DNA of 64,000 bases. Origin: Dyadobacter sandarakinus (lineage in GTDB: Bacteria; Bacteroidota; Bacteroidia; Cytophagales; Spirosomataceae). Below the pieces are notes generated by a model. That model saw only the letters and a program-made list of their open reading frames with translations, was not told the DNA's origin and did not search any database. The translations under genes and the position numbers were made by a program. How positions within the stretch are numbered: position 1 is the first letter of the stretch; every line of letters starts with the position of its first letter. Positions 3,051 through 36,023 of the stretch are shown here, piece after piece. Location: contig NZ_CP056775.1 of assembly GCF_016894445.1 (NCBI RefSeq), positions 4,466,001-4,530,000 of the forward strand, written 5' to 3'.

Positions 3051-5636
3051 TTATGCCGAGTTCCTGGCTGCATTGATGATCCCGAACATGGCCCGTACGA
3101 TCAGCTGATTGTATGTTTCCACATCTACCGGCAGGTTTTTGGGATCTTCTGCAAGCATTTGCAGGGCATATTGCTGGATGGTAATCAGCGGCAGTACAAT
3201 GCGCTCCCTGGTTTTGATAGAAACCTTCGTTACATTATTGCTGTCGAGCAGTTCTTTCTGACCCGACACTTCCAGAAGCTGGTCGCGGGTGAGCAGGAAC
3301 TCATCGTACATTTTATCCCAAAACTCCCGGTACTCTTCCTCATCCCGCAGGTACTTGGTAGCAGGGAAAAATGCTTTGGAGAGCGACTGCATCGAGTTTT
3401 CAATCAGGGTGCGGAAAAACAACGACTTCTGGTACAGCTGTGCGATTGCATCTTTCCGGCCGGCCTCTGCCATTTGTTTGATTGCTGTACCAAAACCGTA
3501 AAAGCCCGGCACATTCTGCTTCATTTGCGCCCATGAACCTACAAAAGGTATAGCGCGCAAATCTTCAAATTTCAGTCCCTCATCGTCATTGCCGCGCTTG
3601 GTAGGCCGGCTGCCAATGTTGGTTTGACCATAAAAACGAAGCGGTGTTTTCTTGTCCAGATACTTGACAAACTTGGGATGTCTTTTCAGGTCGAGGTATG
3701 AGTTATATGCAGCTTCCGCCATTTCCTCGATCAGTTCCTTGTCTTCTGGGGCCAGTTCATCCACTACCCTGTTATCTCGGAAAAGGTGGTTTTCCAGTCC
3801 GGCAGTAAACAGCCTTTCCAGATTGTACATCGCCGTAGTGACAGTACCATAGTTGGAGCTGATTGTTTGCCCCTGCACGGTCAGCTGGATTTCCTTGTCC
3901 TCAATATCAGAGCCGAGTGATGAGTAGAAATTATGGTTGTTACCACCACCACGTGCCGGAGGCCCTCCACGACCGTCAAAAAAGGTCACTTTAATACCAA
4001 ACTCCCTTGAAACCTTGGTCAGCTCTTCCTTGGCACGGTAAATAGACCAGTTAGCACGAAGATACCCGCCATCCTTGGTACCGTCCGAGAACCCCACCAT
4101 GATCGTCTGATGGTTGTCGCGGTTTTGTACATGGGTGCGGTAGTAGTCATTCTGGTACAAACGCCGCATAATGTCAGGCGCATTGGCAAGGTCATCCACC
4201 GTTTCAAACAATGGCACTACGTCCAGCGCAAGTTTGCCATCTTCATCTGCGATCAGGTTTTTGGCCAGCGCTACTACCTGCATGACATTCAATGCAGAGG
4301 TATTATTGCTGATCACATAACGGTGGGCACCATTTTCACCGCTTTTCTCCTGAATGGTTTTGATAGCCCGGATAGATCCCAGAATGTCCTTGGTAAGTGG
4401 ATCTTCGTAGTCCTCGTCACGCAAAGGAATGTTGAGCGACAGCAGGAGATCAATCTTTTTATCCTCGTCCCATCCTTCAAAATCACTGTATTTAAGCAGT
4501 GGAATCTTCTTTTCAAGTCTTTTCAGAATGTCCTCCCAGGCTTTGGTATGCTTGCGGCTGTCCTGGCGGATGTCCAGGCTGGCAAAGAAAAACCCGAAAA
4601 GGTTTAATTTTAAAATAAAGCTATCCAGCAGCTCCACGAATAAGCCCTGGTGCTTGCTTACAAGCACTTCACGCGCTTTCAGAAGCTCATCAATAAGTTC
4701 TTCGGGATTGTTGTAACCTTCTTCATACGGACCGAAAATCGTACTGTTCATTTTCTTTTCGGCCAGTGATACAGCCTCGTCGACACCTTTGAAAGTAAGG
4801 CGGCGTTTCAATGTCCGGAGATCACGATAGTAGCCGCGCAAAACCGTTTCGCGAAGGCGGTCAGCCACCATGAGCGTAATCTCAGGATTCACAAACGGGT
4901 TACCGTCGCGATCACCGCCCGGCCAGAAGCCCAGCCTGAAAACATTCGGGTAAGGCCAGTCGTGCACGCTCATACCCAGTCCATTGATCAGCTTGACCAT
5001 GATGGACGGGATTGCGTCATAATATACATTTTCAAGAAACCAGCACAAGCTCACTGCTTCATCAAACGGCGTAGGCTTCTCGTGGTTGATAAAGGCAGTT
5101 TTACCAAGCTGCAGCAAAAGCTGGTTTACCTCTGTAAAATCATTCTTTTTGATTGCATCTTCCAGATCATTGATAATGCCCAGCACCTTGCCCGAATAAA
5201 ACTGGGTAGGATGTGCTGTAAGCACGATGCGGACACTGAAATCTTCAAGCTTGGCAAGCAGCTTCTTTTTCAGTTCAGGACTGTCGAGCCGCTCTGTAAA
5301 ATAGCTGACGGAACCTTTTCCGGCCAGATCATGGGTAAGGTCAAATGCAGCATCCTCTACCGAATCAAACAGAACTACTTGTCTTTCAATGTACTGTATG
5401 AATGCAAAAAGCAGGTCTGCCCGCTCCTTGGGCGTGGCAGTTTCCAGCAGTTCCGAAAAGAAATGTTCAATAATCTGCCTTGGGGTTTTACCCTCCTGAA
5501 ACCCGATCTCACTTTGCTGGGTCAGGATGGGAAGCAAAGAGCCTGTCTGGAAAATACCCCGGTATGGCAGGCTCAGAAAAAGGCTATTAAAAATATTGTA
5601 TTTCGTTACGACTGCGTCCTGAAAACTGTTATTCAT
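3051..5636 (-). CDS. ppc: Phosphoenolpyruvate carboxylase
   Basis: 861 residues. It carboxylates PEP to oxaloacetate to refill the TCA cycle in the cytoplasm. The catalytic His lies in LTAHPTQ (His142). Other family motifs are FWPGGDRDGNP, GFSDGTKDGGYL and the Arg/Gly loop FDGRGGPPARGGG. I chose the ATG at 5636 over a TTG at 5678 because the TTG sits inside a good -7 promoter box (5676-5683). The C-terminus is RNSA where most PEPCs end RNTG, so the final Gly is absent. It is convergent with the lipoprotein fragment and lies downstream of xerC, apparently as its own transcription unit. Confidence 0.95.
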   Translation of the reverse strand: MNNSFQDAVVTKYNIFNSLFLSLPYRGIFQTGSLLPILTQQSEIGFQEGKTPRQIIEHFFSELLETATPKERADLLFAFIQYIERQVVLFDSVEDAAFDLTHDLAGKGSVSYFTERLDSPELKKKLLAKLEDFSVRIVLTAHPTQFYSGKVLGIINDLEDAIKKNDFTEVNQLLLQLGKTAFINHEKPTPFDEAVSLCWFLENVYYDAIPSIMVKLINGLGMSVHDWPYPNVFRLGFWPGGDRDGNPFVNPEITLMVADRLRETVLRGYYRDLRTLKRRLTFKGVDEAVSLAEKKMNSTIFGPYEEGYNNPEELIDELLKAREVLVSKHQGLFVELLDSFILKLNLFGFFFASLDIRQDSRKHTKAWEDILKRLEKKIPLLKYSDFEGWDEDKKIDLLLSLNIPLRDEDYEDPLTKDILGSIRAIKTIQEKSGENGAHRYVISNNTSALNVMQVVALAKNLIADEDGKLALDVVPLFETVDDLANAPDIMRRLYQNDYYRTHVQNRDNHQTIMVGFSDGTKDGGYLRANWSIYRAKEELTKVSREFGIKVTFFDGRGGPPARGGGNNHNFYSSLGSDIEDKEIQLTVQGQTISSNYGTVTTAMYNLERLFTAGLENHLFRDNRVVDELAPEDKELIEEMAEAAYNSYLDLKRHPKFVKYLDKKTPLRFYGQTNIGSRPTKRGNDDEGLKFEDLRAIPFVGSWAQMKQNVPGFYGFGTAIKQMAEAGRKDAIAQLYQKSLFFRTLIENSMQSLSKAFFPATKYLRDEEEYREFWDKMYDEFLLTRDQLLEVSGQKELLDSNNVTKVSIKTRERIVLPLITIQQYALQMLAEDPKNLPVDVETYNQLIVRAMFGIINAARNSA

Positions 5637-5675
5637 AGGGAGCGACAATATAATATTCGGGTGTTGGAACGAGAG

Positions 5676-5683
5676 CAAATATA
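5676..5683 (-). promoter_or_regulatory. Putative -7 promoter box of ppc
   Basis: Read on the minus strand this is TATATTTG, a perfect match to the Bacteroidota -7 consensus TAnnTTTG, about 40 bases before the ppc ATG. No clear TTTG -33 box is seen at the usual spacing. Confidence 0.45.
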
Positions 5684-5699
5684 GGTTTAAAAATCGGTT

Positions 5700-6572
5700 T
5701 CAGGCTTTCGGATGTGCCTGCTCATGCGTTTTTTTGAGCTTTTCAATGGAGTTGTGGGTATATACCTGCGTGGCCGCGAGATTGGCATGTCCGAGCAATT
5801 CCTTGATTGCATTCAGGTCGGCACCCCGGTTGAGCAGGTGGGTTGCATAGGTATGCCTGAGTACGTGCGGACTTTTTTGGGGCAGCGTAGTCACTGCGGA
5901 AAGGTACTTTTTAACAATCCTTTGTACGAATACCGGGTACGCTTCCTTTCCACTGTCGGTAATAATAAGCGTATCCGTATCTTCCTCAGGCGAGCGTACT
6001 TCCAGATAACGGGTAAGTAATTGTACCAGCAATGCCGGGAGCGGAACAATGCGCTCCTTTGCCCTTTTTCCAAAAACACGAATCGTACGCGCTTTCAGGT
6101 CTACATCGCGGGTTTGCAGCTGCACCAGCTCCGAAAGCCTGATGCCCGTACCATAGAGCAGCTCCATGATCGTCCGGTCACGCACGCCTTGCCAGTCGTC
6201 GGCAAAAAGCTCCTGGCCGAACATCAGCTCCATAGACTTTTCCTCTACGAATGCCGGCAGCTTTTTACGCGTTTTCAGGGAGGACAGTATCTTGGAGGGA
6301 TCGTTCCGGAGCAGGTTTTTCTTTTTCAAAAATCGGTAATATGCGTGCAGCGTAGCGATTTTCCTGTTTACAGATGTCGGATTCATCTTTTCATCCATCA
6401 AACTGGCAATCCAGGAACGCAGCATGGGTGGAGCCGCATTTTCGGGCTCGGCACAATCGTACTGAAAAAGCAGGTACTTGCTGAATTGATCGAGGTCGGT
6501 CTGGTAGGATTTTACCGTATGAGCGCTTGACCGCTTTTCGAATTGAAGGTATTCCAGGAATGCGCCTATCAT
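5700..6572 (-). CDS. xerC: Tyrosine recombinase XerC/XerD type
   Basis: 290 residues, close to the usual Xer length. It has an N-terminal SAM-like core-binding domain (about 1-90) and a C-terminal catalytic domain with the full set R145, K169, H236, R239, H262 and nucleophile Y271 (motifs GTGIRLSEL, HVLRHTYATHLL, LGHANLAATQVYTH). Such enzymes resolve chromosome dimers at dif sites. Housekeeping length and setting (between rpsU and ppc, with no integrase cargo or att repeats) argue against a phage integrase. The start is the ATG at 6572, because the longer frame would cross the rpsU terminator. Whether it acts as XerC, as XerD or alone cannot be told here. Confidence 0.88.
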   Translation of the reverse strand: MIGAFLEYLQFEKRSSAHTVKSYQTDLDQFSKYLLFQYDCAEPENAAPPMLRSWIASLMDEKMNPTSVNRKIATLHAYYRFLKKKNLLRNDPSKILSSLKTRKKLPAFVEEKSMELMFGQELFADDWQGVRDRTIMELLYGTGIRLSELVQLQTRDVDLKARTIRVFGKRAKERIVPLPALLVQLLTRYLEVRSPEEDTDTLIITDSGKEAYPVFVQRIVKKYLSAVTTLPQKSPHVLRHTYATHLLNRGADLNAIKELLGHANLAATQVYTHNSIEKLKKTHEQAHPKA

Positions 6573-10595: not shown

Positions 10596-11282
10596 ATGCA
10601 GGTACTGGCAGAAAAGTTGACAGCATACTCCGGCTTTGCAAAGGTAATCGCCTCTTCAAAGCCCTACCGGAGGCTTGACTTTTCTTCCGGTAATGCTGAC
10701 CTAAGCCGGCTGGACCTTACAGAAACAGCTGTATTTGCGGAGTATGTTTCGGGTGTCATGTTAGAAAATAACCGATACCTGGGAATCGGCGGGTATGCAG
10801 AAGACCGCATTATTTACCGTACCCGCAAACATTTTCAGCAAAACACCCAACCGAGAAGCATTCACCTCGGAACAGATATCTGGACGACAGCCGGTGAGCC
10901 CGTGCATGCGCCTTTGTCCGGACAGGTTCACAGTTTTGCATTCAATAACCACTACGGTGATTATGGTCCCACGATCATTCTTGCACACGAGCTGCAAGGT
11001 GCCCGGTTTTACACGCTTTACGGACATTTATCGCTGGAATCACTGCATGGCTTATACGAAGGAAAAGAAATCAGCACCGGCGAATGCTTTGCTTCCATAG
11101 GGTTTTACCCGGAAAACGGCGACTGGCCTCCGCATCTGCATTTTCAGGTTATAGAAAATATGGGCGAATGGAAAGGCGACTATCCCGGTGTAAGCAGCTG
11201 GCAGGATCGCGATTACTATCTGGCCGCTTGCCCCGATCCTAATCTCATCCTGTGCATCCCTGAAAATACTTATTTGCGGTGA
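10596..11282 (+). CDS. M23-fold (LytM-like) metallopeptidase protein without signal peptide
   Basis: 228 residues from the ATG at 10596; a TTG at 10584 is possible but less likely. The M23 signature is present: HLGTDIW (HxxxD, first zinc ligands), a beta core, then YGHLS and HLHFQV (HxH). Most M23 enzymes are exported peptidoglycan hydrolases. This one shows no signal peptide or membrane segment, so it may be cytoplasmic or act on another substrate. It follows the metalloprotease by 14 bases and its 3' end overlaps the convergent SDR gene by 13 bases. Confidence 0.75.
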   Translation: MQVLAEKLTAYSGFAKVIASSKPYRRLDFSSGNADLSRLDLTETAVFAEYVSGVMLENNRYLGIGGYAEDRIIYRTRKHFQQNTQPRSIHLGTDIWTTAGEPVHAPLSGQVHSFAFNNHYGDYGPTIILAHELQGARFYTLYGHLSLESLHGLYEGKEISTGECFASIGFYPENGDWPPHLHFQVIENMGEWKGDYPGVSSWQDRDYYLAACPDPNLILCIPENTYLR

Positions 11283-12022
11283 ATCGTCGTAGCGGCTGAT
11301 TGCGCCCCGGCCAGAATGGTCACATCGGCAATGGTAACGCGCGAAGGTGCATTGACAGCGTATAAAACAGCATCAGCAATATCTTCCGGCTGCAATGGCT
11401 CAAATCCCTGGTATACTTTCTCAGCCCGCTCCTTGTCTCCTTTAAAACGAACCAGTGAAAAATCAGTCTCTACGGCGCCGGGAGCCACATTCGTGATCTT
11501 GATGCCATGCTGCGTCAGTTCGAGCCGCATACCTTCACTGATGGATTCAACAGCAGCTTTGGAAGCACAGTAAACCGTTCCGTTTGCATAGGTTTGCTTG
11601 CCGGCAATTGAGCTTATATTGACAATATGGCCTTTGCCTCTTTCCAGCATCAGCGGGATTACAGCCTTGGATACGTACAGCAAGCCTTTTACATTGCTGT
11701 CGATCATAGCATCCCAGTCATTGGTATCACCCTCATCAAGGGTACCCAGGCCGTGTGCATTACCTGCATTATTGACGAGTATATCAATGTTTTTCCAGGC
11801 ATCAGGCAGGGAGGCGACCATCGCCTGCACAGCTCCATTGTCTCTGACATCGAAAATCAGGCTGGTAACCTGCACTTTGGCATGCAGCGAGGCACTCAGC
11901 TCATCCAGCTTGTCCTGGCGGCGGCCACAAAGAATAAGGTCAATACCTGCGCCGGCAAATGCCAGTGCAGTTGCTTTTCCGATGCCGGAAGTAGCTCCGG
12001 TAATCAATGCAATTCGGGACAT
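11270..12022 (-). CDS. SDR-family NAD(P)-dependent oxidoreductase (YdfG-like)
   Basis: 250 residues, a classical short-chain dehydrogenase. Cofactor loop TGATSGIG (9-16) followed by CGRR suggests NADP preference. NNAG is at 84-87, catalytic Ser138, Tyr151 and Lys155 (YCASK), and the C-terminal region has PGAVETDFS. It most resembles the YdfG / 3-hydroxy-acid dehydrogenase subgroup; substrate not determined. It lies 41 bases downstream of the ctp protease gene on the same strand, probably cotranscribed. Confidence 0.85.
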   Translation of the reverse strand: MSRIALITGATSGIGKATALAFAGAGIDLILCGRRQDKLDELSASLHAKVQVTSLIFDVRDNGAVQAMVASLPDAWKNIDILVNNAGNAHGLGTLDEGDTNDWDAMIDSNVKGLLYVSKAVIPLMLERGKGHIVNISSIAGKQTYANGTVYCASKAAVESISEGMRLELTQHGIKITNVAPGAVETDFSLVRFKGDKERAEKVYQGFEPLQPEDIADAVLYAVNAPSRVTIADVTILAGAQSAATTIHRK

Positions 12023-16148: not shown

Positions 16149-17615
16149 ATGAAAAAAAGAACAACCAGCCCCAAAGCGGGCAACAATGCACAATCGGCAT
16201 CCGGCGCGTCCCGGTCATTCCAGAAATCCAGCGGTGGTACAGGAGGCGATCGCCCTTTCAAGCGGGCCAAGTCCGAGGTAGAAAGCCGGTTCAGCAAACC
16301 ATCCATCAAAAAATCAAGTCTGCGTTTTTCCAAAACTGAAAATACCGGGCAAAAAGCACGTCCGGATTTCAGTCATGAAAAGCCCGAGTCGTTCAAACCA
16401 CGATCGTTCCGCGACCGTGAAGAGTTTACTTCCGAAGGCAAGAAGCCATTTTCAAAGCCTGAAAGGCCGTTTTCAAAAACAGATAAGCCTTTTTCAAAAG
16501 CAGACAGGCCTTTTTCAAAAACGGATAAACCTTTTTCAAAGTCGGACAAACCTTTCTCAAAGTCAGACAAGCCTTTTTCAAAGTCGGACAAGCCTTTTCC
16601 GAGAACCGAGGCGCCTTTCTCGAAATCTGAAAAGCCTTCTTTCCGGGAATCTGGCCGTAGTAAGGGATTTGGCAAACCAGAGCGCGAAAGCGAACGCCCC
16701 TTCGGTTTCAAGCAAAAAGAAAACTCAGGTTTTAAAAAAAAAGACGATTCTGAGCCCAGGGATCATGCAGCTCCCCAATCGGGAAGTGCGGAGCCGGAAG
16801 CGGACCAAAGCGGACTGGAAAGAAGAGTAGGACGCTACAAATCGGCTCCCGGATATGATCTCTCCGGCTATGAAAAAAGGACCGGCAAAAAGGTGAAGGA
16901 AGACCCTTCCGACATCCGCCTGAACCGCTACATTGCTAATGCAGGCATTTGTTCAAGGAGGGAAGCTGATGACCTTATTGCTTCGGGGCAAATTTCGGTA
17001 AATGGTAAAACTGTGACCGAAATGGGCTACAAAGTAAAGCTGAGCGATGTTGTCAAATATGGCAAACGTGCGCTGAACCCCGAAAAAATGGTGTATATCC
17101 TGATTAATAAACCGAAGGATTACATTACGACTACAGATGATCCGGAAGAACGCAGAACCGTACTCGACCTGATCAAAGGAGCTTGCGACGAACGTGTTTA
17201 CCCGGTTGGCCGCCTCGACCGCAATACCACGGGTCTGCTGCTGCTGACCAATGATGGCGAACTCGCCGGAAAGCTGACGCATCCATCAACTGGCATTGGC
17301 AAAATTTACCAGGCGGAGCTTGACCGACCAATTGCAACAGAGGATTTTGAAAAATTACAGCAGGGTGTGGCGCTGGAAGACGGTTTCATTCGTCCTGACG
17401 AAGTAGGTATTGTTACTCCGGATGCGATGGTCGTAGGACTTGAAATTCATAGTGGACGTAACCGGGTGGTACGCCGCATCTTCGAACATTTAGGCTATGA
17501 GGTGAAAAAGCTGGACCGTACTGTATTTGCAGGCCTCAATAAGAAGGACCTGCCAAGAGGTAAATGGCGGTTTTTGACAGAGAGGGAAGTTATTAAGCTT
17601 AAATATATGCTGTAA
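16149..17615 (+). CDS. 23S rRNA pseudouridine synthase, RluB/RsuA family, with repeat-rich N-terminal tail
   Basis: 488 residues, about twice the catalytic unit. Residues 1-255 are lysine/serine/proline rich and probably disordered, with nine tandem 7-residue units of the form PFSKSDK at 100-162. The S4 RNA-binding domain follows (RLNRYIANAGICSRREAD, about 257-305). Then comes the synthase domain with ILINKPKDYITT and the catalytic Asp357 in GRLDRNTTGLLLLTNDGEL. It isomerises a uridine in rRNA; by family RluB-like, target base not provable here. Basic N-terminal tails on this enzyme are common in Bacteroidota. A strong terminator follows. Confidence 0.88.
   Translation: MKKRTTSPKAGNNAQSASGASRSFQKSSGGTGGDRPFKRAKSEVESRFSKPSIKKSSLRFSKTENTGQKARPDFSHEKPESFKPRSFRDREEFTSEGKKPFSKPERPFSKTDKPFSKADRPFSKTDKPFSKSDKPFSKSDKPFSKSDKPFPRTEAPFSKSEKPSFRESGRSKGFGKPERESERPFGFKQKENSGFKKKDDSEPRDHAAPQSGSAEPEADQSGLERRVGRYKSAPGYDLSGYEKRTGKKVKEDPSDIRLNRYIANAGICSRREADDLIASGQISVNGKTVTEMGYKVKLSDVVKYGKRALNPEKMVYILINKPKDYITTTDDPEERRTVLDLIKGACDERVYPVGRLDRNTTGLLLLTNDGELAGKLTHPSTGIGKIYQAELDRPIATEDFEKLQQGVALEDGFIRPDEVGIVTPDAMVVGLEIHSGRNRVVRRIFEHLGYEVKKLDRTVFAGLNKKDLPRGKWRFLTEREVIKLKYML
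16446..16634 (+). repeat. Tandem 21-base repeats coding for PFSKSDK-like heptads
   Basis: Nine consecutive 21-base units in frame inside the rluB-like gene. The units read PFSKPER, PFSKTDK, PFSKADR, PFSKTDK, PFSKSDK three times, PFPRTEA and PFSKSEK. The middle units are nearly identical in DNA, so copy number may vary between strains by slippage. Confidence 0.85.
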
Positions 17616-32719: not shown

Positions 32720-34216
32720 ATGTCCAAATACATCGCCGCCATTGACCAGGGTACCACCAGTACCCGCTGCATTCTTTTCAATCATCAGGGACAGATCGTC
32801 TCCGTAGGTCAGAAAGAGCATTCCCAGATTTACCCGAACCCGGGCTGGGTGGAACACAATCCGGTTGAAATTTGGAAAAATACGCTTGAAGTCATTGCTC
32901 TGGCCCGGATTCAGGCGTCGGCAACTTCGGCGGATATTGCTGCCATAGGGATCACTAACCAGCGTGAAACCACCGTAGTCTGGAATAAACGTACCGGCAG
33001 GCCGTACTATAATGCACTGGTTTGGCAGGATACACGTACTTCCGACCTGGTGACGCAATTTGAAAAAGAAGGCGGGCTGAACCGCTTCCGTGAAAAAACC
33101 GGACTGCCTCTTTCCACTTACTTCAGCGGATTAAAGCTGAAATGGCTGCTGGAAAATGTTACAAACCTGAGGGAAGACGCTGAAAAAGGCGAGGCGCTTT
33201 TCGGCAATATGGACACCTTCCTGATCTGGCATCTCACAGGCGGCGTGCAGGGCGGCATTCACGTGACCGATGTTTCCAATGCAAGCCGCACGCAGCTCAT
33301 GAATCTTCGGTCACTGCAGTGGGATGCGGATATGCTGGCAGCGTATGATATTCCGGCGCAAATGCTCCCGGAAATCCGTTCCAGCAGTGAGGTATACGGA
33401 CATGTTACCAATGAAATCCTGCCTGGCGTGCCCGTAGCGGGCGATCTGGGCGACCAGCATGCGGCATTGGTGGGACAAACCTGCTTTACGCCGGGTATGG
33501 CCAAAAATACCTATGGTACCGGGTGCTTTCTGGTGATGAATACAGGCGGGGAACTTAAAACATCGGAAAATGGCCTGTTGTCAACCATCGCCTACCAGTT
33601 TGCAGGACAGCCTGTACAATATGCTCTGGAAGGAAGTGTGGCCGTGACAGGCGCGCTGGTTCAGTGGGTCCGCGACAACCTTGGTTTGATCGACAAAAGC
33701 AGTGATATTGAAACCCTCGCCAGAACCGTTCAGGACAATGGAGGTGCGTATTTCGTACCCGCATTTTCAGGATTGTACGCACCTTACTGGCGTAATGATG
33801 CCCGGGGCGTTATTGCGGGCCTGACGCGCTACGTCAACAAAGGTCACATTGCCAGGGCAGTACTCGAAGCAACTGCCTACCAGACCCTCGATGTGGTACG
33901 GGCCATGGAACAAGATTCCGGCATTACGCTTGCCTCCCTGCGTGTGGATGGCGGTATGGTACAAAACCAGCTGCTCATGCAATTTCAGGCGGATATCCTG
34001 AACACCCAGGTTGTGGCGCCTACCATTGCCGAAACTACTGCCTTGGGCGCAGCCTACGCAGCGGGTCTGGCCGTAGGCTACTGGCAAAACATCGACGAGC
34101 TCAAACAAAACTGGTCTGTAGCCCACACCTGGAACCCGCAAATGGAAGAGCCCCAACGCACAAACCTGCACAAAGGCTGGCAAAAGGCGGTTACGAAATC
34201 TTATGATTGGGTTTAA
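32720..34216 (+). CDS. glpK: Glycerol kinase
   Basis: 498 residues, the family length. FGGY kinase with ATP site [12 protein letters not shown] (9-20), the substrate region [12 protein letters not shown], and the second domain [14 protein letters not shown] and [20 protein letters not shown]. It phosphorylates glycerol to glycerol-3-phosphate. No glpF or glpD is adjacent. A decamer repeat tract begins 9 bases after the stop. Confidence 0.95.
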
Positions 34217-34224
34217 GGAATGTG

Positions 34225-34264
34225 AGGTATGGTCAGGTATGGTCAGGTGTGGTCAGGTGTGGTC
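34225..34264 (+). repeat. Four tandem copies of a 10-base unit
   Basis: AGGTATGGTC occurs twice, then AGGTGTGGTC twice, without spacers. Related sequence occurs inverted at 34290-34314 and 35072-35103, on both sides of the outer-membrane gene. Confidence 0.9.
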
Positions 34265-34289
34265 ATTGTTGCAATATGGATTTTATAAA

Positions 34290-34307
34290 ACAATACCTGA
34301 CTACACC
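34290..34307 (+). repeat. 18-base direct repeat, left copy
   Basis: ACAATACCTGACTACACC, identical to 35086-35103. It is also the approximate reverse complement of the decamer tract (CAGGTGTAGTCAGGT). It lies just past the 3' end of the outer-membrane gene. Confidence 0.85.
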
Positions 34308-34335
34308 TGACTATAAAATTACCACGACTATTCTC

Positions 34336-34941
34336 CTATTTACCAAACCAGTAACTCGCCGACAACTGCAAGTTCCTATTATAAAAGTCATGGACATTCT
34401 TAATGTTGCCGTTGTTTTCGGCGATTGAAAATAGACCAAGGGGTGCTATGCCTTGTACGAACCGAAGGCCAATATCCAATGAAGACGACGCCTGAATGCG
34501 GCAGCCGATTACGGCAGAAAGGTCAAAGTCAGTATTTATAAACAACACCGATTTTTTTGACTTGTAAATAAAACTTCCCTGCGGCCCAACTTCTAAAACA
34601 AGCCATTTTGCAGGCCGAATATTCAATACTATAGGGATGGACAGGAAATGCGCGTAGGATTTCGAGAATTGAAGATTGCTCCCGTTAATTGTATACAATA
34701 CCTCGCCTTGAAGCCCTAGTAAGGTACTAAACCTTTTCTCTGCAGCAACGCCTATATTAGAAAGTACCAGTGGCTTCCAGACATTCTTTAAAGCACCATT
34801 GTACGCATTCGTCCTGACATAAAAATCAGAAACATTCACTCCACCTTTGACTCCAAACCTTACGCCCTGACCCATCGCTGAACAACCCGCCAAAACAAAC
34901 AAAATCACAGCCTGAATCCAAAAAGATGTAATTCCCTTCAT
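34336..34941 (-). CDS. Outer-membrane beta-barrel protein
   Basis: 201 residues. A signal peptide ends near LAGCSAMGQ; Cys20 is a possible lipobox (LAGC), otherwise signal peptidase I cleaves after SAMG. The rest alternates short beta-strands typical of PF13568-like 8-stranded barrels (GVKGGVNVSDF at the start; LSASYWFGK as terminal strand with an aromatic residue). Likely in the outer membrane, function unknown. Its coding region is visibly more AT-rich than glpK or the exonuclease next door and it is bracketed by repeats, which suggests acquisition. Confidence 0.75.
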   Translation of the reverse strand: MKGITSFWIQAVILFVLAGCSAMGQGVRFGVKGGVNVSDFYVRTNAYNGALKNVWKPLVLSNIGVAAEKRFSTLLGLQGEVLYTINGSNLQFSKSYAHFLSIPIVLNIRPAKWLVLEVGPQGSFIYKSKKSVLFINTDFDLSAVIGCRIQASSSLDIGLRFVQGIAPLGLFSIAENNGNIKNVHDFYNRNLQLSASYWFGK

Positions 34942-35071
34942 ACCGATTTATATTTTGATGAATAAAAATGATCGCATCAAGCTAGAACACATCAACAACT
35001 TCCATCAAAATCATTATCCTCCGGCTCGCCCCGCCTACCCACCGGCAAATTCAACACACTACAAAACAACA

Positions 35072-35103
35072 AATGACCACACCTGACAATACCTGACTAC
35101 ACC
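35072..35103 (+). repeat. Right-hand repeat block: inverted decamers and 18-base direct repeat
   Basis: AATGACCACACCTGAC (35072-35087) is the reverse complement of GTCAGGTGTGGTCATT at the end of the left decamer tract. It runs directly into the second copy of the 18-base repeat (35086-35103). Together with 34225-34307 it brackets the outer-membrane gene. Confidence 0.85.
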
Positions 35104-35159
35104 AGCCCCTCCTGCCCCGCGTTTTTGGAATGAGTATAAACTATGACTAGCCTTGCGCC

Positions 35160-35167
35160 TACGTTTG
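35160..35167 (+). promoter_or_regulatory. Putative -7 box upstream of the exonuclease gene
   Basis: TACGTTTG fits TAnnTTTG, 46 bases before the ATG at 35214. No -33 box is seen at normal spacing. Apart from the repeat block, I see no other feature in 34942-35213. Confidence 0.35.
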
Positions 35168-35213
35168 TTTCACCTTAACTTCGCGACGTGAATTTGATAA
35201 TCAGCGTACGTCT

Positions 35214-36023
35214 ATGCATACCCTCCGCCTGAAAAAGCCACTGGCTTTTTTTGACCTGGAAACTACCGGCACCAATATTGTCCGGGACCGTATTGTAGAG
35301 ATATCCGTTGTAAAAGCACTGCCCAACGGAGAAAGCGAGATCCGTACCCGCCGCATTAATCCCGAAATGCCCATTCCGCTGGAAACCAGTCTGATCCACG
35401 GCATTTACGACGAGGATGTAAAGGATGCCCCCACATTTAAGAGCATTGCCAAAAATCTCACCCAGTTTCTTGAAGGCTGTGACCTGGCCGGTTTTAACAG
35501 CAACCGTTTTGATATTCCCATGCTCGTAGAGGAATTCCTGCGGGCAGGTGTTGAATTTGACCTGAAAAACAGGAAAACTGTTGATACCCAGCGTATCTAC
35601 CACATGATGGAGCCCCGGAACCTGGCAGCAGCCTATAAATTCTACTGCGGGAAAACACTTGAAAATGCGCACAGTGCTGAGGCTGATACCATTGCCACCT
35701 TCGAGGTTTTACAGGGACAGATTGCCCGGTACGAGGGTATGGTCATGATCGATGGTCACGGCAAAGAGATCGAACCGGTCAAAAATGACGTTGCTGCGCT
35801 GCATGAGCTCACGGCATCCAAGGTGGTTGATTTTGCGGGCAGAATGGCCTATAACGACAAGGGTGAGGAGGTTTTTAATTTTGGAAAACACAATGGAAAA
35901 CGCGTGGTGGATATCCTGAAAAGCGAACCCTCGTTTTTTGACTGGATGATGAAGGGAGAGTTTCCACTGGATACCAAAAGAAAGCTTACGGAAATCAAAT
36001 TGAGGACATTGACGCAGCGCTGA
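35214..36023 (+). CDS. DEDDh 3'-5' exonuclease (DNA polymerase III epsilon-like) with C-terminal DUF3820-like domain
   Basis: 269 residues. ExoI has D14 and E16 in FFDLETTG, ExoII is FNSNRFDIPML, and ExoIII is HSAEADTIAT with the catalytic His (DEDDh type). The last ~70 residues (FNFGKHNGKRVVDIL, FFDWMMKGEF) resemble the DUF3820 domain found on other stand-alone exonucleases. It could be a proofreading subunit or a repair/RNA exonuclease. No polymerase gene is nearby. Confidence 0.85.
   Translation: MHTLRLKKPLAFFDLETTGTNIVRDRIVEISVVKALPNGESEIRTRRINPEMPIPLETSLIHGIYDEDVKDAPTFKSIAKNLTQFLEGCDLAGFNSNRFDIPMLVEEFLRAGVEFDLKNRKTVDTQRIYHMMEPRNLAAAYKFYCGKTLENAHSAEADTIATFEVLQGQIARYEGMVMIDGHGKEIEPVKNDVAALHELTASKVVDFAGRMAYNDKGEEVFNFGKHNGKRVVDILKSEPSFFDWMMKGEFPLDTKRKLTEIKLRTLTQR

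Follow-up and report, generated by a model that had tools for sequence, protein, structure and literature searches.

Short tandem repeats that face each other across an accessory outer-membrane gene raise the question of whether the repeats carry the gene or serve a function of their own. The case lies between glpK and an exonuclease gene in the window, the whole stretch of 64,000 nt analysed here, which covers positions 4466001–4530000 of a 6.07-Mb single-contig Dyadobacter genome (G000). On the left, glpK (glycerol kinase, a core gene; 32720–34216, plus strand; FGGY_N and FGGY_C domains) is followed, 8 nt past its stop codon, by a left arm of about four decamers (34225–34265, plus strand; 4.1 copies in a tandem-repeat search of the window), with full TCAnnnnTnG units at 34233, 34243 and 34253. 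A short spacer, read from the sequence as a loop (34266–34290, no strand), separates it from a first right arm of two reverse decamers (34291–34310, minus strand), which adjoins the left arm and is predicted to form a strong hairpin with it. Then comes the gene for a 201-aa outer-membrane beta-barrel protein (34336–34941, minus strand; PF13568, E 7.8e-9 in a profile search), which is enclosed by the older array pair. A second right arm of three reverse decamers plus an edge (35067–35103, minus strand; full reverse units at 35067–35096) is located just upstream of the leader of the 3'-5' exonuclease gene, the right flank and also a core gene (35214–36023, plus strand; RNase_T family, PF00929). 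The earlier note on this DNA had placed four tandem decamers on one side of the barrel gene and their reverse complement on the other. The arrays are real, but one reverse arm already stands on the glpK side, 28 nt past the last full forward unit.

The window contains 12 matches to AGGTRTGGTC with at most one mismatch where 4.58 are expected, and 12 or more were reached in 0 of 100 shuffles. The barrel gene is AT-richer than its surroundings, as had been noticed: its GC content of 0.424 is the lowest among the 44 window ORFs of at least 150 aa, while that of the window is 0.481. Since glpK and the barrel gene are convergent, the stretch at 34225–34310 lies between two 3' ends, and its hairpin has a minimum free energy of -48.6 kcal/mol (z -6.0; 0 of 200 shuffles as strong). 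Canonical terminators were absent from 34000–35400, and Rfam gave no match at gathering score in the window or in four further loci (L041, L044, L089, L090). Elsewhere in the window, at 16443–16643, tandem repeats of 21 nt (AAGCCTTTTTCAAAGTCAGAC), imperfect and with a period divisible by three, are probably a low-complexity coding repeat.

The identical 18-mer reported on both sides of the barrel gene is exact, at 34290–34307 and 35086–35103. It is made of decamer units common to both reverse arms, and an exact stretch of 18 nt or longer was shared by 3.8% of 4595 random pairs of same-sized arm pieces taken from other sites in the same genome. The 18-mer is therefore no evidence of a target-site duplication, an explanation that we rejected at P of about 0.04 for unrelated arms.

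Comparison across the genus separates the repeats from the gene. glpK and the exonuclease gene adjoin each other in all 46 Dyadobacter genomes, and the barrel gene, an accessory gene, is found in only two of them, at the same place (G000 and G007), so that the segment is indeed missing in relatives that have the two core genes joined, as the earlier note had anticipated. The two barrel proteins are 46–47% identical, and the exonucleases 89%. In-register arrays occupy the gap in 19 of the 46 genomes, that is, in 18 of the 45 others and in our own, and in 16 genomes they do so without any gene; G007 and G033 have a gene in the gap without in-register arrays. In a midpoint-rooted tree from 1287 columns of glpK and exonuclease DNA, arrays at this gap are confined to one clade (support 98/96), where 19 of the 31 species have them; 0 of the 15 species outside it do, though a few of these carry arrays elsewhere. 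TTCG-type units are also present in the gaps of G011 and G013, and no hairpin that replaces the arrays was visible by eye at this gap in array-less species. Also by eye, a 13-nt loop stretch (TTTCTCCTCTC side) lies in opposite orientation in G017 (L090) and G003 (L088), which looks like a flip of the spacer inside its pair of arms.

Because arrays occur here without the gene and the barrel gene without arrays, the two are independent. The comparison also shows the age of the glpK-gap copy. A recombinogenic cassette, whose repeats move the barrel gene between sites, is thus very improbable. The arrays do flank the barrel gene on both sides; moreover, the gap is a gene-turnover spot, occupied in 5 of the 46 genomes by a gene that is always convergent with glpK (L216, L217, L218, L234), namely the barrel gene in G000 and G007, an RNA-ligase-like gene (PF17720) in G008 and G063, and a VanW-domain gene in G033. 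Array spacers have also been entered by a different repeat, at 10 of 25 places (see below). However, gene-free arrays and an array-free barrel gene at the same gap speak against repeats that bound or move a cassette, the 18-mer is within chance for a decamer family, and repeats and cargo that come and go together, as in a cassette, an insertion sequence or a MITE, were not seen at the glpK gap. Nor was the idea that the repeat family moves the barrel gene between sites borne out within the genome, where the two weak barrel paralogues (4117459 and 4731375) lie more than 29 kb from the array sites listed.

By its position, which is that seen in relatives, the second right arm (35067–35103) is probably the original right arm of the glpK gap. 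The barrel gene most likely entered an existing pair, since the outer arms correspond to the two arms of relatives and enclose both the barrel gene and the inner reverse arm. It probably came between the arms separately, perhaps by recombination that used glpK and the exonuclease gene as homologous flanks, and it looks like a separate, later guest rather than a cargo of the repeats.

A genome-wide search, which the earlier note had proposed, revealed a dispersed family. Two adjacent TCADDDDTDG units match 151 times in the same genome, and the reversed control pattern 0 times; the matches listed include at least 17 named intergenic array places. Three adjacent units are present in 33 of the 46 Dyadobacter genomes, with 2–497 matches each and a patchy distribution (control 0 in all 46), and a stricter decamer pattern matched 20 of 59 relatives. 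Array density was 5 sites per 464 kb in a tract of our own genome and 1 per 400 kb in a tract of G017 (D. jiangsuensis), with 0 in shuffles. A scan with one pattern gave 48 stretches, 43 of them in Dyadobacter, and among the other five (Bacillus, Oligoflexia, Verrucomicrobia, Gammaproteobacteria and Spirosoma), with 2–3 units and no reverse partner, no paired arrays were seen; 2 of 22 other-genus genomes had a single match with one mismatch. The open-access literature searched held nothing on decamer arrays in Dyadobacter.

For architecture and placement we tabulated 60 sites, from the window, 14 other loci of the same genome and 43 named Dyadobacter loci; these loci were chosen by array patterns, with TCAGG-rich ones over-represented. 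Sites with fewer than three units, or with a flanking ORF missing on either side, were dropped, and gene calls were longest ORFs, not annotations. The family unit is the 10-nt TCAnnnnTnG, arranged as a forward array, a spacer and a reverse array: forward-then-reverse order was found at 42 sites, a single arm at 18 and reverse-then-forward order at 0. Unit-to-unit intervals were multiples of 10 in 665 of 691 cases, where the cluster definition itself required at least one such interval. The 804 consensus units reduce to 106 distinct ones, with GG at positions 4–5 in 472. Among 102 in-register units that depart from the consensus, T1 is kept in 90, C2 in 74, A3 in 85, T8 in 85 and G10 in 93, and position 9 is G in 35, A in 32, T in 30 and C in 5. 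Spacers of the 44 paired sites measure 6–265 nt and are mostly unrelated, with a RAYT-linked different repeat and one orthologous pair as exceptions.

Other units were met beside the family. Decamers of the form TTCGnnnTnG, in the same 10-nt register, occur in G005, G008, G011, G013, G020 and G059 (L236–L247) and share some arrays with TCA-type units. At one locus of our own genome (L039, G000:C1:2369000-2386000; about 4600–5550 and 10814–11380), decamer arrays alternate with CCCTGAGCGGAGTCGAAGGG palindromes close to repeated TldD/PmbA-like genes.

Functionless products of neutral slippage, tolerated only where they hit no promoter or gene, could have left such a record, and indeed the arrays are lineage-patchy, the number of units is free to vary, and a nested clade of six species (G007, G014, G016, G019, G035, G067) has lost them totally. 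Position-specific constraint, fixed polarity and arrays that have persisted at the glpK gap in a clade of 31 species make this explanation quite unlikely.

The arrays are placed with respect to genes. After exclusion of four sites with an inner ORF, convergent gaps held 18 of the remaining 56 where intergenic length predicts 10.2, tandem gaps 33 (29.4 predicted) and divergent gaps 5 (16.5 predicted), a distribution with p 7e-4. Within tandem gaps the upstream stop codon was nearer than the downstream start at 26 of 33 sites (p 0.0013), with medians of 19 and 54 nt. One-arm sites in tandem gaps showed no preference of direction (5 versus 4). Decamer arrays of Dyadobacter are, in short, facing arrays positioned behind stop codons.

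Our first choice, to which we give nearly but not quite even weight, is that the paired arrays are REP-like long stem-loops, which would serve behind genes both as an mRNA-end structure and as a barrier or terminator that works in two directions. We count for it the order and register of the arrays, their placement relative to genes and their distribution at the glpK gap. Through the common consensus each forward unit would be able to pair with each reverse unit, and since all units share this consensus, a long stem-loop could form on whichever strand is transcribed. Such a structure would work at 3' ends as a barrier or terminator in the manner of REP/BIME elements, its units may be gained and lost in 10-nt steps through slippage or recombination, and the family would spread and die out lineage by lineage. 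When both arms were folded, all 43 paired sites gave lower energies than any of their 20 shuffles (median z -5.0; one more site, longer than 600 nt, was skipped); three other stretches that ended before their reverse arm (z of -1.8, -0.4 and +0.6) carry no information on this. This strong folding is not independent proof, because it follows automatically from inverted arrays.

Several observations tell against the stem-loop reading or qualify it. One-arm sites make up 18 of the 60, and strong inverted repeats are limited to 8 of 30 convergent gaps in the D. jiangsuensis tract. Within a site, the fit between the two arms is barely better than between arms of different sites (top 5% at 2 of 44 sites; unit-shuffle p ≤ 0.05 at 12 of 44), so pairing itself is not visibly selected, and little selection for unit-by-unit complementarity was seen at the 44 paired sites. 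Wobble pairs at tandem sites showed no asymmetry along transcription (73 sense, 91 antisense), and selection on RNA through such pairs was rejected on this ground. A T-tract, taken as five T in the 8 nt after the hairpin, followed at only 1 of 26 tandem sites, and the absence of a canonical terminator from 34000–35400 and of a replacement hairpin from the glpK gap of array-less species points the same way. A Rho rut site, with a C-rich, G-poor arm and regular spacing, is not favoured, because one-arm tandem-gap sites face both ways. We also set aside the idea that TGA in all frames of the reverse arm supplies backup stop codons; the forward arm comes before the reverse one, and no TGA is present in TTCG-type units.

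The main rival to stem-loops, possible though doubtful, is that the decamers are binding sites for a DNA-binding protein, one monomer per helical turn on TCA and T.G, in which case two facing filaments would act as a roadblock, an insulator or a nucleoid anchor. We keep it in this place because a factor that acts in trans and recognises sequence accounts better for position-specific constraint combined with helical phase: the 10-nt phase is exact, constraint falls on the same five positions at all sites and in both arms, the arms share a consensus rather than compensate each other, strand asymmetry is absent, and one-arm sites in tandem gaps face either way. However, no candidate protein was identified, the core is not fixed, as TTCG-type units stand in the same arrays of some species, and three-unit arrays are missing from 13 of the 46 genomes.

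How the same junction is closed in different species was followed behind kbl, at 30 loci from 46 genomes, of which one (G031) was left unplaced. The convergent 3' junction of kbl has an inverted repeat beyond all of 20 shuffles in 26 of the 29 placed genomes, and these repeats are unrelated in sequence between species. They are decamer arrays in G000, G003, G017 and G027, purine arrays of GGAGGAAR units that face a pyrimidine-rich partner in G005, G011, G020, G036 and G066 (L297, L291, L296, L287, L284), CCTGAGCGG palindromes in G016, G067 and their relatives, an AT-rich array in G014 and simple hairpins in the others. That the role would be kept while the sequence changes we count for the stem-loop reading. 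Strong inverted repeats were found in 20 of 26 convergent gaps (shuffled, 0 of 26), 20 of 131 tandem gaps and 6 of 51 divergent gaps of the 464-kb tract of our own genome; for the 400-kb D. jiangsuensis tract the 8 of 30 convergent gaps compare with 2 when shuffled. In D. jiangsuensis the kbl array precedes a canonical terminator, and it is not needed there, because sister species keep the terminator alone. GGAGGAAR arrays are dispersed and often forward-then-reverse, in a low-complexity pattern whose reversed control also matches; as a second inverted-array family they occur also in the tract of our own genome and in G017.

A more specific form of the protein-binding idea, and a somewhat more doubtful one, would join these observations. 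A sequence-specific factor of Dyadobacter might read one TCA....T.G word per helical turn on facing 3'-end arrays and make them a protein-based two-way insulator of transcription or of the chromosome; array pairs and rival inverted-array families such as GGAGGAAR would then swap at the same junctions, with the role kept and the sequence not.

Dispersed copies with a single polarity also recall MITE- or REPIN-like mobile repeats, which are not autonomous and rely on a transposase acting in trans, as does the presence of arrays directly behind the kbl stop codon in G017, the JDP9-like G027 and G003 but not in G062, G065 and G032. We consider this unlikely. The spacers of paired sites are mostly unrelated, and Y1 transposases are present in 45 of the 46 genomes, with or without decamer arrays. 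Of eight Y1 loci in G000, G017 and G027, three were read, and no decamer array lies within 8–12 kb of them; the 12 kb read at the only Y1 match of our own genome (4023811) contain other repeats but no arrays. Mobilisation of the decamers by a RAYT was rejected on these grounds, as unlinked at the three loci and uncorrelated in presence, and no transposase tied to the arrays was found.

A Y1 (RAYT-like) transposase gene does have a different repeat, GCATGCCTGACGGCATTT, beside it in both G017 and G027. In 30 loci from five genomes, 10 of the 25 independent places of GCATGCCTGACGGCATTT are within 500 nt of decamer arrays; 7 of these are array-flanked on both sides, and at 9 every array points at the insert. 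Since GCATGCCTGACGGCATTT sits among inward-pointing arrays, array spacers do receive inserts, and the barrel gene may be another such insert. Further repeats lie beside Y1 genes. A RAYT-like Y1 gene next to fmt, with several palindromic TGCCTGACGGCA copies beside it, is at the same place in L343 (G027:C9:951000-960000) and L344 (G017:C6:465000-473000), and TGCCTGACGGCA is dispersed in array-rich Dyadobacter. Upstream of the Y1 match of our own genome (L342, G000:C1:4018000-4030000; about 5505–5750) there are AAAGGTGCAGCGCACCGC repeats, unrelated to the decamers.

Across this genus, inverted repeats of unrelated sequence, be they decamer arrays, purine arrays, palindromes or simple hairpins, close one and the same convergent gene pair at its 3' end. 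The kbl case allows a test of whether interspersed repeats are recruited to block transcription or merely tolerated. With array-rich and array-free close relatives, Dyadobacter is well suited to deciding whether paired G-rich arrays, those of Xanthomonas included, work at the level of DNA, of RNA or of protein binding.

Among published repeats, the GGGAATC heptamers of Xanthomonas come closest. In the parts of Rehm et al. (2015, PMC4692102) used here, Xanthomonas and Nostoc have G-rich tandem heptamers (GGGAATC and GGGGA(C/T)T) in variable number in intergenic regions, rare between divergent ORFs and often less than 50 bp from a stop codon, and Xanthomonas has 70–75 cases of two close arrays in convergent orientation. 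As far as that account goes, the decamers are likewise short, G-rich, tandem, variable in number, intergenic, depleted in divergent gaps, near stop codons and found in convergent pairs. However, the Dyadobacter unit is a degenerate 10-mer rather than a 7-mer, pairing is the rule (42 of 60 sites), and the phylum is another. The decamers also differ from these heptamers in that G-tracts are not kept (GG at positions 4–5 in 472 of 804 units; G at position 9 in about one third), and because of this we rejected G-quadruplex formation as the common denominator.

REP, BIME and REPIN elements, as described in the portions of PMC3733652 and PMC2817692 drawn on, are interspersed, extragenic and species-specific, lie by 3' ends mostly in convergent and unidirectional gaps, form inverted pairs and have been proposed to act in termination. 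Decamer arrays resemble this picture in being interspersed, extragenic, species-specific, near 3' ends, mainly in convergent or unidirectional gaps and in inverted pairs. Unlike these elements as so described, the decamer is not palindromic and has no GTAG- or CGTC-tagged palindrome of 20–40 bp, its symmetry exists only between arrays, the arrays are tandem and variable in length, and a linked RAYT was not found at the three Y1 loci read. With intrinsic bidirectional terminators the arrays share an inverted repeat at a convergent 3' junction, and at kbl they replace or accompany ordinary hairpins, but their arms reach about 200 nt, are mismatched and usually have no T-tract. Unit, G-tracts, palindrome and transposase set the Dyadobacter family apart from these repeats, and what it shares with them is placement and convergent pairing.
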